This document shows positions 6,669-54,665 of a stretch of 64,000 bases of DNA, piece after piece. Under the pieces are notes generated by a model, which did not search any database, was not told the DNA's origin, and worked only from the letters and a program-made list of their open reading frames with translations. Source of the DNA: Phyllobacterium sp. 628 (lineage in GTDB: Bacteria > Pseudomonadota > Alphaproteobacteria > Rhizobiales > Rhizobiaceae); NCBI RefSeq assembly GCF_014189505.1, contig NZ_CP050301.1:3231501-3295500 (forward strand). Reading direction: 5' to 3'. A program made the position numbers and the translations under genes. Numbering within the stretch: position 1 is the stretch's first letter; each line of letters starts with the position of its first letter.

Positions 6669-7697
6669 ATGCGCGCATTACAGCTGATTGAAGACCGCAA
6701 GCTCGAGATTGTCGATATTGCTCCCCCGCCCCCGCCCGGTCCGGGTGAAGTAACGGTCAACATCAAAGCTGTTGCGCTCAACCACATTGACGTCTGGGGC
6801 TGGCGCGGCATGGCTTTTGCCAAGCGCAAGATGCCGCTGACAATCGGCGCGGAAGCCTCCGGCGTTGTCGATGCCATCGGCCCGGGCGTTGCCAATCTTT
6901 TGCCCGGCCAACTGGTTTCGATCTACGGTGCACAGACCTGTGGCCTTTGCCGCCCTTGCCGTGAAGGCCGCGACAATCTTTGCGAACACGTTTCCGGCGT
7001 GCATGGTTTCCATCTCGATGGCTTTGCGCAGGAAAAAGTGAACCTGAAAGCCCGCCTGCTCGTCCCGGCACCTCCCGGCGTTGACGAAATCGGAGCGGCT
7101 GTAGCGCCTGTCACCTTCGGAACGGTCGAACACATGCTGTTTGACAATGCCAAGCTCGAAGCGGGCGAGACTATCCTTGTCCATGCGGGTGGTTCGGGTA
7201 TCGGCTCAGCAGCTATTCAGCTTGCCAAGAAGATGGGCTGCACGGTCATCACCACCGTTGGTTCCGACGAGAAGATTGAAAAAGCCAAGGCGCTCGGCGC
7301 CGATCACGTCATCAATTATCGCGTCGACCGTTTCGAAGGCGTTGTGCGCAAGCTGACCAAGAAGAAGGGCGTCGATGTTGTCTTCGAGCATGTCGGCGCC
7401 GATACCTGGGCCGGTTCCATGCTGTCGCTGCGGCGCGGCGGGCGGCTTGTCACCTGTGGCTCGACCTCGGGCGTCTCGACCAATCTCAACCTGATGATGC
7501 TGTTCCAGCAGCAGTTGAAACTGCTCGGCTCCTTCGGCTGCCGTATGGAGAACATGGCCGACGCCATGCAGAAAATGGCGCGCGGACTCGTGCGTCCGGT
7601 TATCGATACGGAAGTGGGCTTTGACGACATCGATACTGCGTTGAAGCGCATGGAAGGCCGCGACGTCTTCGGCAAGATTATCCTGCGCGTCAATTAA
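6669..7697 (+). CDS. Zinc-type alcohol dehydrogenase / enoyl reductase-like MDR protein of the acpXL locus
   Basis: 342-residue medium-chain dehydrogenase/reductase. The structural zinc lobe cysteines are present in TCGLCRPCREGRDNLC (about residues 93-108), and the nucleotide site is HAGGSGIGSAAIQLAKK. It matches the adh2XL gene that always lies between fabF1XL and lpxXL in rhizobial lipid A loci. Its role there may be in reducing the enoyl intermediate or forming the 27-hydroxy group; this is not proven. The start at 6669 is the first ATG after the fabF1 stop, with AGGAAA just upstream. The next gene starts 3 nt after its stop, which indicates one operon. Confidence 0.85.
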   Translation: MRALQLIEDRKLEIVDIAPPPPPGPGEVTVNIKAVALNHIDVWGWRGMAFAKRKMPLTIGAEASGVVDAIGPGVANLLPGQLVSIYGAQTCGLCRPCREGRDNLCEHVSGVHGFHLDGFAQEKVNLKARLLVPAPPGVDEIGAAVAPVTFGTVEHMLFDNAKLEAGETILVHAGGSGIGSAAIQLAKKMGCTVITTVGSDEKIEKAKALGADHVINYRVDRFEGVVRKLTKKKGVDVVFEHVGADTWAGSMLSLRRGGRLVTCGSTSGVSTNLNLMMLFQQQLKLLGSFGCRMENMADAMQKMARGLVRPVIDTEVGFDDIDTALKRMEGRDVFGKIILRVN

Positions 7698-26160: not shown

Positions 26161-26283
26161 GTGCGTGGTTCGACAAGCTCACCATGAGGGACAGTGAGGA
26201 TTGCAGGAAGTTAATTCTGCAACATTAGTGATTACTTTGCAGCCCATCCATTTCCCTCATGGTGAGCGTGTCGAACCACGCAC
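26161..26283. repeat. Hairpin repeat family R, copy A
   Basis: 123 nt. Left arm GTGCGTGGTTCGACAAGCTC, then ACCATGAGGGA. Right arm TCCCTCATGGTGAGCGTG, then TCGAACCACGCAC, the reverse complement with one change. The centre contains an internal TTGCAG/CTGCAA pair. The same element occurs at 28884, 35949, 44799, 49350 and 53390 (interrupted). Here it fills the space between converging cobK and cobM. Confidence 0.93.
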
Positions 26284-29038: not shown

Positions 29039-29467
29039 TTAGAACCTGAAACTAAGTAGGATGACACCGCCGCCAATCAGCAGAACACCGAGCCAGTTCA
29101 GGCCTGATAGTTTCTCGCCGAGAAATGCCACGCCGAAAATTGCAACCATCACCACGGACAGTTTGTCGATGGGCGCAACCCGCGCCGCATCGCCGATTTT
29201 CAATGCACGAAAATAGGCGAGCCACGATGCACCCGTCGCCAGCCCGGACAGGATCAAAAATGTCCAGGTCTTGGCTGAAATGGTTGACGGGCTTTGCCAT
29301 TGCCCGCTGACGGTCAGAAACAGGCAGAGCGCGCCGATAATGACAAAGGTACGGATCAGCGTGGCAAAATCCGAATTGATATTCTCAATGCCGATCTTGG
29401 CAAAAATGGCGGTCAGAGCCGCGAAGATTGCGGAGAGAAAAGCCCAGAATTGCCAAGTTCCTGTCAT
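29039..29467 (-). CDS. Short EamA/DMT-family membrane protein
   Basis: 142 residues with about five membrane helices, half the size of a full EamA transporter, so it probably works as a dimer. Family features are LSAIFAALTAIFAKIGIENINSD at the start and GDAARVAPIDKLSVVMVAIFGVAFLGEKLSGLNWLGV near the end. Its ATG overlaps the cobO stop by 1 nt (TGATG), so it is the last gene of the riboswitch-controlled cobP-cobW-cobN-cobO unit. That placement invites the idea of a B12- or cobalt-related substrate, but nothing in the sequence proves it. Confidence 0.8.
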   Translation of the reverse strand: MTGTWQFWAFLSAIFAALTAIFAKIGIENINSDFATLIRTFVIIGALCLFLTVSGQWQSPSTISAKTWTFLILSGLATGASWLAYFRALKIGDAARVAPIDKLSVVMVAIFGVAFLGEKLSGLNWLGVLLIGGGVILLSFRF

Positions 29468-30105
29468 CAGAATTCAATGCCCTTCTGCGCCTTGATACCG
29501 GACCGGAACGGATGTTTGATCATTTCCATCTCGGTGACAAGGTCGGCGAACTCGATAAGTTCGTCCTTGGCGTTGCGGCCGGTGATGATCACATGTTTCA
29601 TGTGCGGCTTTTGTTTGAGAACCTCAATGATTTCTTCGACGGGGAGATAGTCGTAGCGCAGCGCGATGTTCAGCTCATCACAAAGTACAATGTCCGTTTC
29701 ATCGTCGAGGATCATTGTCTTTGCCTGTTCCCATGCGTCGCGAGCCATGGCGATGTCGCGCGCCCGATCTTGCGTCTCCCAGGTAAATCCCTCGCCCATG
29801 GCCGAGATTTTCACCTGTTCCGGAAATTTCTCCAATACCCAGCGCTCACCGGTGTCCCATGAGCCTTTGACGAACTGAATGACGCCAATCCTCATGCCGT
29901 GGCCGAGCGCCCGGAAAACCACCCCGAAACCGGCGGTAGACTTGCCCTTTCCCTTACCGGTATTGACGATCACCAATCCCTTTTCATCGGTCTTGGTGGC
30001 AAGAATTTTATCGCGCACGACCTTCTTCTTGCGCATCTTGTCCGCATGGCGCGCGTTCACTTCCTCTTCGGTCAGGTTCAACAGTTTCTCTGATTTTTCA
30101 GCCAT
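29467..30105 (-). CDS. cobO: Cob(I)yrinic acid a,c-diamide adenosyltransferase CobO
   Basis: 212 residues of the CobA/CobO/BtuR family. The P-loop is VIVNTGKGKGKSTAGFGVVFRALGHG (about 45-70), and FVKGSWDTGERW, DETDIVLCDELNIALRYDYL and VIITGRNAKDELIEFADLVTEM follow as expected. It transfers the adenosyl group of ATP to cob(I)yrinic acid diamide. The N-terminal 40 residues are charged and conserved in rhizobial CobO. It lies 26 nt downstream of cobN with AGGACAC as ribosome site, under the upstream B12 riboswitch. Confidence 0.94.
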   Translation of the reverse strand: MAEKSEKLLNLTEEEVNARHADKMRKKKVVRDKILATKTDEKGLVIVNTGKGKGKSTAGFGVVFRALGHGMRIGVIQFVKGSWDTGERWVLEKFPEQVKISAMGEGFTWETQDRARDIAMARDAWEQAKTMILDDETDIVLCDELNIALRYDYLPVEEIIEVLKQKPHMKHVIITGRNAKDELIEFADLVTEMEMIKHPFRSGIKAQKGIEF

Positions 30106-35459: not shown

Positions 35460-35649
35460 CGCCGCCGTCAATACGACCGCAATGGTCCATCAAACGGCAG
35501 CGGCGGCGCCGCACTATCAAGATGTGAGGGGGAAGAACAATAGAACGCGCGATGCGAGCAGCCATGACAACCTCCGTGCTGGGCCAGAAGGGATGCTACC
35601 CTTCGGTTCTTGGGCAGGATTACCCCAAGCGTTTCCTGGGAAACGCTCT

Positions 35650-35858
35650 ATGACTGGCAGGTCTCCTGGCTCGCGGGTCACGGGATCGATGCTGCCTTCC
35701 CGGTTTCCCAGTGACTGCCTTCTGCATATGCGTCAGGCTTTGCATTGATCCTCGCCGCTCTACAGTCGCGGGGTCGGCTGCGGTGGGATCGCCCATTCGG
35801 GTACGACCGTCGCATTCCCTTTTGATCCCTTGGCCTTTGGCCAATATGGGAACCAATC
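35650..35858 (-). promoter_or_regulatory. Cobalamin (B12) riboswitch
   Basis: Read on the minus strand, the conserved parts appear in order: GGTTCCC near 35848-35854, GGGATCAAAAGGGAATGCG near 35810-35828, CCGCAGCCGACCCCGCGACT near 35765-35785, CACTGGGAAACCGGGAAGG near 35695-35713, and the B12 box GCCAGGAGACCTGCC at 35657-35671. This is the standard adenosylcobalamin aptamer. Just beyond it lies a 9-bp hairpin (AGCGTTTCC/GGAAACGCT, 35628-35647), which may belong to the expression platform; no U-run follows, so control may be translational. It should repress cobP-cobW-cobN-cobO-eamA when B12 is abundant. Confidence 0.95.
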
Positions 35859-35948
35859 ATGCGGTGGACGTTATTCATCCCCCATGAGAAATGTCAATTG
35901 AATCTATGTGGTTTGCTTAGAGCGCGATGCATTGCTTGCATGTGTACA

Positions 35949-53389: not shown

Positions 53390-53408
53390 GTGCGTGGTTC
53401 GACAAGCT
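53390..53408. repeat. Hairpin repeat family R, copy F, left fragment
   Basis: GTGCGTGGTTCGACAAGCT, identical to the left end of copies A, C, D and E, then interrupted by the IS110-family element directly after the CT dinucleotide. The remainder of the copy resumes at 54560. Confidence 0.92.
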
Positions 53409-53596
53409 TGTCTGTTTGAAGTGTGTATACTGGCTTGGTCCACGTGCCCATTGACGGCACGTGGACCGATGGACCTGAGGCCGTTTCGACAGCCGGACGT
53501 TTGCCAGTCCGATGGTGAGCAAGGCCCGGTCCTTCGATGACACCCGAACAGTTGCCAGGGGCATCGACCCCGCATGACAAGCCAGGGGTTTTCATC
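53409..53596 (+). ncRNA. Predicted bridge RNA of the IS110 element
   Basis: Non-coding leader between the left end and the transposase start. By eye it folds into three parts. (1) A 12-bp stem-loop at 53437-53467 (GGTCCACGTGCC/GGCACGTGGACC). (2) A loop closed by GGACC-GGCC (53471-53482) and GGCC-GGTCC (53523-53532), with an inner hairpin CGGAC/GTCCG (53494-53511). Its left side carries TTCGACA (53485-53491), equal to the left target; its right side carries ATGGTGAGC (53512-53520), complementary to the right target GCTCACCAT. (3) A second loop with hairpin GGGG/CCCC (53558-53571). It carries ACAGTTGC (53548-53555), equal to the left donor end, and GACAAGC (53576-53582), complementary to the right donor GCTTGTC. 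The stem GATGA/TCATC closes it. Confidence 0.8.
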
Positions 53597-54550
53597 ATGA
53601 CACAGTTTACGCGTTTTGTCGGCATCGATGTGAGCAAGGCTTACCTCGATCTGCATTGTTTGCCTGATGGGCTGGAACTGCGGGTGCCCAACAGCCGCGC
53701 AGGCGTTGGTCTTTTGCTGCAGCGCATCGGTGTGCTGGAAGGGGTTGCCTTTGGCTGTGAAGCCACAGGCGGTTATGAGGATTGCCTGCTGATTGTGCTG
53801 GGTGAAGCTGGCATGGCAGCCTATTGCCTGCATCCTTCCGATGTGCGCTCCCATAGCCGCCTGACGGGCCGGCGGGCCAAGACGGACCGGCTGGATGCGA
53901 TCGCCATTGCCCGGGCACTGCAGGTTGCCGTTGCCACCCGCAAACCGGCGATCCGGTCCACAACCATGAGCGCCATCAAAGAGTTGACGACATTGCGCCG
54001 CCGGTTGATTGCCGGACTGAGTGAGCTGAAAAGCCACGAGGCGCGCATGGGCGATGCGGATGCTGCCAGCATCATTGGCGTGTTGATGGACCAGCACATC
54101 AAAGCCATCAAGACACTGGAAGCACATATACGCAGCGCCATAGCCCGCAATCCCGCACAGGCACAAACGGCAAGGCGCATCGCCTCGATGCCGGGAGCCG
54201 GTCCCGTCCTGACCGCCGAACTCATCGGCTCCATGCCCGAGCTTGGCACGCTATCCAGCCGTCAGGCGGCCAGCCTGACCGGCGTTGCTCCGCATCCGCG
54301 CCAATCGGGAAACAGCAGCCGCAGCGGAAAGTGCCAGGGCGGACGGGCAGGCATCCGCCGCGTCCTCTATATGGCATCCTTAAGCGTCATACGTTGCGCA
54401 AAACACCCGCTCGCCGCCTTCTATCAAAGGCTCAGAGCCAACGGAAAGCCCTTCAAACTGGCCATTGTCGCACTCATGCGAAAGCTCATCGTCACCCTCA
54501 ACGCAATGATCAAAAACCAAACAGATTGGCAACCAAACATTCAAACATAA
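53597..54550 (+). CDS. IS110-family serine-RuvC transposase (bridge recombinase)
   Basis: 317 residues from MTQFTRFVGIDVSKAYLDLH. The frame is open to 53537, but that part codes within the leader RNA and would add 20 atypical residues. The RuvC-like DEDD residues are Asp11 (GIDVSK), Glu55 (CEATGG), Asp97 and Asp100 (KTDRLDAIAIARAL). The Tnp_20 domain holds the MPGAGPVLTAELI segment and the serine region around 237-241 (HPRQSGNSSRSGK). All are in the expected places compared with IS621-type recombinases. The protein appears complete. Confidence 0.94.
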   Translation: MTQFTRFVGIDVSKAYLDLHCLPDGLELRVPNSRAGVGLLLQRIGVLEGVAFGCEATGGYEDCLLIVLGEAGMAAYCLHPSDVRSHSRLTGRRAKTDRLDAIAIARALQVAVATRKPAIRSTTMSAIKELTTLRRRLIAGLSELKSHEARMGDADAASIIGVLMDQHIKAIKTLEAHIRSAIARNPAQAQTARRIASMPGAGPVLTAELIGSMPELGTLSSRQAASLTGVAPHPRQSGNSSRSGKCQGGRAGIRRVLYMASLSVIRCAKHPLAAFYQRLRANGKPFKLAIVALMRKLIVTLNAMIKNQTDWQPNIQT

Positions 54551-54559
54551 ACACAGTTG

Positions 54560-54665
54560 CTCACCATGAGGGAAAGTGAAGATTGCAAGGAGCCATATCC
54601 TGCAATCTTTCCGGTTAACCTTTCAGCCGCACTCTCCCTCATGGTGAGCTTGTCGAACCACGCAC
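54560..54665. repeat. Hairpin repeat family R, copy F, right fragment
   Basis: Continues the repeat from CTCACCATGAGGGAAAGTGA through TGGTGAGCTTGTCGAACCAC to GCAC. Together with 53390-53408 it makes a complete copy of about 123 nt, split by the IS110 element at the CT of the left arm. The right arm has an identical, still empty target-like site on the other strand. Confidence 0.93.

Follow-up and report, generated by a model that had tools for sequence, protein, structure and literature searches.

An IS110-group insertion sequence of Phyllobacterium with a left-end bridge RNA whose guides match an abundant inverted repeat

An IS110-group insertion sequence of 1153 bp occupies positions 53407-54559 of the window, the 64,000-nucleotide stretch of the Phyllobacterium sp. 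628 genome analysed here. From left to right it consists of a CT core, a left end with a structured leader, the gene for a 317-aa recombinase and a short right end, and is followed by a second CT (Table 1). The genome holds four copies, identical across a 1176-base query. Their flanks diverge outside a shared repeat, so the element ends are fixed independently of any guide sequence. All four copies occupy the site TTCGACAAG-CT-CACCAT; joining their flanks restores the repeat, indicating clean insertion at the core dinucleotide without a longer target duplication. The rebuilt site and the joined ends, ACAGTTG-CT-TGTC, are thus those that an earlier, sequence-only reading of this DNA had proposed. 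Across the joined ends of a circular form, the promoter candidate TTGCTT-16-TATACT is weak (8/12), and the integrated form has another candidate that also scores 8/12; its TATACT, at 53426, would place a transcript start near 53433-53438 and predict a leader RNA of roughly 160 nt. One scan of viral contigs found no relative.

Table 1. Positions in the window of the element's features and of its insertion site
Feature	Position	Strand	Basis
Left target half TTCGACAAG, inside family-R repeat	53398..53406	+	Common to four copies; flanks diverge beyond repeat
Left CT core	53407..53408	+	Sequence reading, four-copy flank comparison, chance test
5' stem-loop of bridge RNA, 12 bp (53437-53448 with 53456-53467)	53437..53467	+	Sequence reading, fold
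Target- and donor-binding loops of bridge RNA	53468..53590	+	Relatives' covariance model, 58.1 bits, E 1.6e-11
Left target guide TTCGACA with GC next to it, offset by one base from target	53485..53491	+	Sequence reading, register comparisons
Right target guide ATGGTGAGC, complement of GCTCACCAT	53512..53520	+	Sequence reading, relatives' concordance
Left donor guide ACAGTTGC	53548..53555	+	Sequence reading, covariance model, chance test
Right donor guide GACAAGC, complement of GCTTGTC	53576..53582	+	Sequence reading, covariance model, chance test
IS110-group DEDD recombinase, 317 aa	53597..54550	+	Pfam PF01548 and PF02371; alignment to IS621 (8wt6)
Right end, left-donor sequence ACAGTTG	54553..54559	+	Sequence reading, four-copy comparison
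Right CT core and right target half (CT-CACCATGAGGG)	54560..54572	+	Sequence reading, four-copy comparison
Untouched inverted partner arm of occupied family-R repeat	54636..54657	-	Repeat scan of window

The recombinase carries the Pfam domains DEDD_Tnp_IS110 and Transposase_20 and aligns with the PDB transposases of ISCro4 (phmmer E 3.1e-21) and IS621 (E 1.2e-17). In the alignment, residues D11, E55, D97, D100 and S237 correspond to D11, E60, D102, D105 and S241 of IS621 (PMC11208158), so that all catalytic residues are kept. The protein therefore combines a DEDD RuvC-like domain with a Transposase_20 domain that bears the catalytic serine, as expected of the IS110 group. A structured RNA ahead of the gene, within the left end, is likewise shared with this group; the IS1111 arrangement, in which the RNA follows the gene in the right end, was not found, the RNA model matching upstream of the gene.

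The repeat at the insertion site belongs to an inverted-repeat family that we call family R. A 21-mer of the family has 241 matches in the genome at three or fewer mismatches, compared with one for a reversed control pattern, and the 17-bp site itself is present in 181 exact, intact copies. Between positions 26169 and 54657 the window contains ten arms (at most three mismatches to a 22-mer); eight are paired in inverted orientation, at distances of 85 to 102 bp. Among the 80 matches listed, the repeat is found mostly in Phyllobacterium and Nitratireductor contigs. A single genome offers a large set of intact natural targets for one element.

The leader reads as a bridge RNA with four guides at the positions that had been claimed for it, both by inspection and by the covariance model described below. 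The guides of loop 1 match the target and those of loop 2 match the joined ends, core included, although for the left target guide this requires that one base be skipped or two mismatches be allowed. Pairing of the right target guide with the repeat is perfect over CT and CACCAT, and the last C of this guide would be the handshake base. When four IS621-style guide words (30 nt in total, ungapped) were required in order, the leader matched 27 of 30 positions. No dinucleotide shuffle among 3000 came as high (maximum 25), nor did any of 2958 random stretches of the window (maximum 24). The leader also folds better than its shuffles (z -2.82), 2 of 200 being equally good. One qualification applies: in the minimum-energy fold of the single sequence, the 5' hairpin and a good part of the target loop are present, whereas the donor loop is mispaired, and for this loop we rely on the covariance model. 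At gathering thresholds, the sole Rfam match in the window is a cobalamin riboswitch at 35639-35872 on the minus strand (90.6 bits).

To build that model, the leaders of 20 relatives, out of 38 elements, were aligned, with the window element and its close relative left out. A structure of 24 pairs was drawn by hand, tested for covariation and then used as the basis of the model; the structure produced by RNAalifold was dropped because the target loop lacked its outer stem there. In the relatives, 18 of the 24 pairs have changed on both sides, compared with 9.1 in shuffles, and the covariation score of 0.371 falls to 0.12 or less when partners are slid by one to three columns. The model matches the window leader strongly (Table 1) and assigns each pair of guides to opposite sides of one loop, the target pair to loop 1 and the donor pair to loop 2. 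A model built without the window element therefore places its guides in internal loops, as the sequence-only reading had it. Among 23 loci outside the model, 18 match at E ≤ 0.001 and 19 at E ≤ 0.1; at the latter threshold no match was obtained for L170, L173, L147 and L023, and the leaders of L170 and L173 are broken. In a search of the whole genome, in which 150 of 1207 first-look candidates were scored, only the four copies match at E ≤ 0.001. Weak matches in the window at 7167-7256 (minus strand, E 0.074) and 29429-29549 (plus strand, E 0.11) lie over long ORFs and, judged by eye, were set aside as chance.

If the leader is a bridge RNA, the guides of each relative should fit that relative's own target better than the targets of others. 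The element set came from 130 examined loci (one without ends). In 99 the two ends share a core, and 86 of these reach a score of 16.5 or more; loci were merged to 41 and then to 38 elements. The words defining element ends were entered manually from multi-copy elements, and the choice of ends leaned towards equal cores and towards CT or CC. Guides were set by the structure and targets by the element ends, with two left-guide registers open to own and swapped targets alike. From 39 model matches in 36 sources, removal of 3 second matches and of 2 loci with differing cores left 34 elements, 20 of which are members of the model. Matches to own targets total 400, whereas 20,000 permutations give a mean of 222 (sd 11) and a maximum of 269. 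The left guide scores 5.62 of 7 on its own target and 3.06 on those of others, the right guide 6.15 of 7 and 3.33, and in 27 of the 34 elements no other target does as well as the own one. With the window element and its close relative left out, 32 elements remain; their total is 382, and no permutation exceeds 258. One element, L012, fails, with 24 of 33 other targets equally good. A looser search that makes no use of the structure is weaker: own targets average 12.5 of 15 compared with 10.5, and in 14 of 38 elements the own target is the sole best. The guides thus covary with the integration sites, the outcome on which the earlier reading had staked itself, and from this own-target concordance we conclude that the published bridge-RNA rule holds across this IS110 branch.

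Taken together, the locus very probably holds an IS110-group insertion sequence whose left-end bridge RNA guides insertion into the family-R repeat. The RNA would be expressed from the left end of the element and bound by the recombinase; its loop 1 would pair with a chromosomal repeat site, its loop 2 with the junction where the ends meet in an excised circle, and the enzyme would swap strands at the CT core. Because its bridge RNA is written for this abundant inverted repeat, the element would insert in repeat arms. The leader could instead be a structured 5' region or an sRNA that regulates the transposase, its guide matches being coincidental; the IS110-family element ISPpu9 does have regulatory sRNAs (PMC8450116), and the 3' stem of the donor loop lies directly before the ATG. 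Coincidence is opposed both by the chance test, in which shuffles stay below the leader's score, and by the covariation of guides and sites in relatives, and we regard this explanation as highly improbable.

The order of the guides, their strand sense, the CT core and the loop placement agree with the scheme described for IS621 (PMC11208160, PMC11208158), as first proposed for this leader. That the target of the element can be read from its own RNA is supported; the novelty that this seemed to imply was set too high, since reading the target of an IS110 element in this way was published in 2024, with the IS621 bridge RNA (PMC11208160). The present element and IS621 (E. coli, PDB 8wt6) share a left-end bridge RNA with two internal loops, an 8-nt left donor guide between 2-nt linkers (our own sequence reading against PMC11208158), insertion in REP sequences, and the DEDD and serine residues. 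Unlike IS621, to which its protein is only distantly similar, the window element has a longer right target guide, a left target guide offset by one base, and a different repeat family and host. Elements of the IS1111 group that use seekRNAs (ISPa11, ISKpn4) have related enzymes and RNA-guided target choice, and ISPa11 targets REPs, but the seekRNA comes from downstream of the gene rather than upstream (PMC11187229). ISPpu9, ISPpu10 and ISRm19 likewise belong to the IS110 family and insert into REPs, as described in 2006 (PMC1525189), though in other hosts and other repeats; the likeness is one of description. A search of open-access papers, preprints excluded, found none that joins Phyllobacterium with IS110. 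The element is thus a further case of a published kind, and what remains of interest is its out-of-step base and its many intact targets: it offers a clean natural instance of the bridge-RNA code outside E. coli, with ends, guides and intact sites in one genome.

The left target guide reads TTCGACA and then GC, offset by one base from the site exactly as had been noticed. In the fixed registers it matches 2 of 7 positions; with one target A skipped it matches all 8 scored positions, and without a gap no placement exceeds 6 of 8, which is attained one step away from the register of its nearest relative. That relative comes from a different genome of the genus, G596. Its leader and that of the window element are 82% identical, and the guide of its copy L172, TTCGACGGGC, matches its own flank TTCGACAGG-CT ungapped with one mismatch. 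Since the left loop is 12 nt long between GGCC and GGAC in both elements, the window guide seems to have lost one base and gained one before it. Two other G596 flanks, at loci that both contain assembly gaps, read TTCGACGGGG-CT; on these the L172 guide matches 8 of 8 with a skipped base or 7 of 8 when displaced by one step. As the four copies are identical, guide included, the present form of the guide most likely preceded their spread, gene conversion being the alternative.

How common such offsets are was judged in two ways. Across 34 rows (31 relatives, the window element and the two G596 flanks), a skipped base gains at least two matches in two, the window element and L153. A census covered 67 copies of 31 elements, leaving out L172 and two C-homopolymer elements, with the register of the window element set by hand from L172; 49 copies are in register, 5 are offset at +1, 1 at -1 (L150) and 12 match poorly. 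The five at +1 are the four window copies and L229, whose leader is the same as those of three sibling copies of its element that were not flagged as offset. Swapped targets predict 0.03 offsets at +1 and 2.7 of all kinds, against 3 seen when the window copies are counted once. The +1 class, which was not named beforehand, stands out, and offsets of all kinds show no clear excess over chance.

The TTCGACA-GC guide, one base short of the site, would most likely be accommodated by skipping one target A or, alternatively, by a position one step further along the loop with two mismatches tolerated. A bolder reading, to which we give rather less than even odds, is that the right target guide sets the register of the crossover and the left heteroduplex tolerates one looped-out target base directly beside the core. 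Two unrelated natural cases fit this reading, the window element (four copies at one type of site) and L229. Discontinuous pairing has a precedent, on the RNA side, in the two bases flipped out of the right donor guide of IS621 (PMC11208158). A tolerated bulge, as suggested earlier, is possible, but we keep it tentative because a displaced, mismatched guide fits nearly as well and because offsets lack a clear excess. Such a displaced guide would pair through CGACA and the core C, leaving two mismatches beside the core; the same one-step displacement serves the window guide and the L172 guide at the TTCGACGGGG flanks, whereas skipping one base pairs every scored position and leaves the guide in the register that it has in the relative's loop. 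We think displacement somewhat unlikely.

A decaying left guide is, in our estimate, another unlikely though real contender. Targeting would then fall to the right guide, which is perfect in the window element, and the left half would match because the repeat family is uniform. Poor left guides do accompany perfect right guides in L150 (2 and 7 of 7) and in L006 and L161 (3 and 7), and the mismatches of copy L209 are 4 of 7 on the left and 0 of 5 on the right; yet the window guide keeps the letters of the site save one base, and 49 of 67 copies in register imply that the left guide is generally kept. The guide might also be exact for a variant repeat one A shorter, met in a former host, a version of the earlier suggestion that it is best matched to a variant site. 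The 16-mer TTCGACAGCTCACCAT has one exact and one single-mismatch occurrence among 19 genomes of the genus, its own included. Against this, a search of the element's own genome with the 20-mer of the shorter site, TTCGACAGCTCACCATGAGG, finds nothing at up to three mismatches, and all four copies occupy the longer site, which leaves the variant-site explanation disfavoured and, in our view, quite improbable. Mismatch tolerance of bridge recombinases has been measured (PMC11208160), and the word bulge is absent from the main text of PMC11208160 and PMC11187229. If the looped-out base is real, bridge RNAs can be active with an indel besides mismatches, which bears on the specificity rules of bridge recombinases for genome engineering.

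Two stretches of the G596 draft are fragmentary. L172 (contig C19, the same stretch as L175) is a bridge-RNA-only fragment without a gene, like a miniature element, flanked by copies of the left end and the repeat half-site in inverted orientation; it may be an artefact of assembly, since gaps occur in other copies of this draft. In L173 (contig C45, the same stretch as L176), which contains NN, the leader is cut at the right target guide ATGGTGAGC and a repeat arm follows directly, which gives the impression that the guide recombined with the repeat.

Cores other than CT occur among the relatives. Five have CC at both ends (L154, L167, L169, L201 and L014, from genomes G395, G580, G316, G428 and G129), and their right target guides end in GG rather than AG; the CC ends agree among multi-copy elements of G395, G428 and G316. 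Against this, L160 and L018 were also given CC cores and their guides finish in AG; the choice of ends, too, leaned towards CT and CC. The T at the second core position is described as almost invariant (PMC11208158). An AT core is seen in four relatives (L147, L152, L155 and L164), with L152 and L164 lying in GGG-AT-GAC sites. At L153, two different IS110 elements lie head to head (2432-2556 on the minus strand and 2796-2921 on the plus strand), each with its own bridge RNA and with different left target guides.
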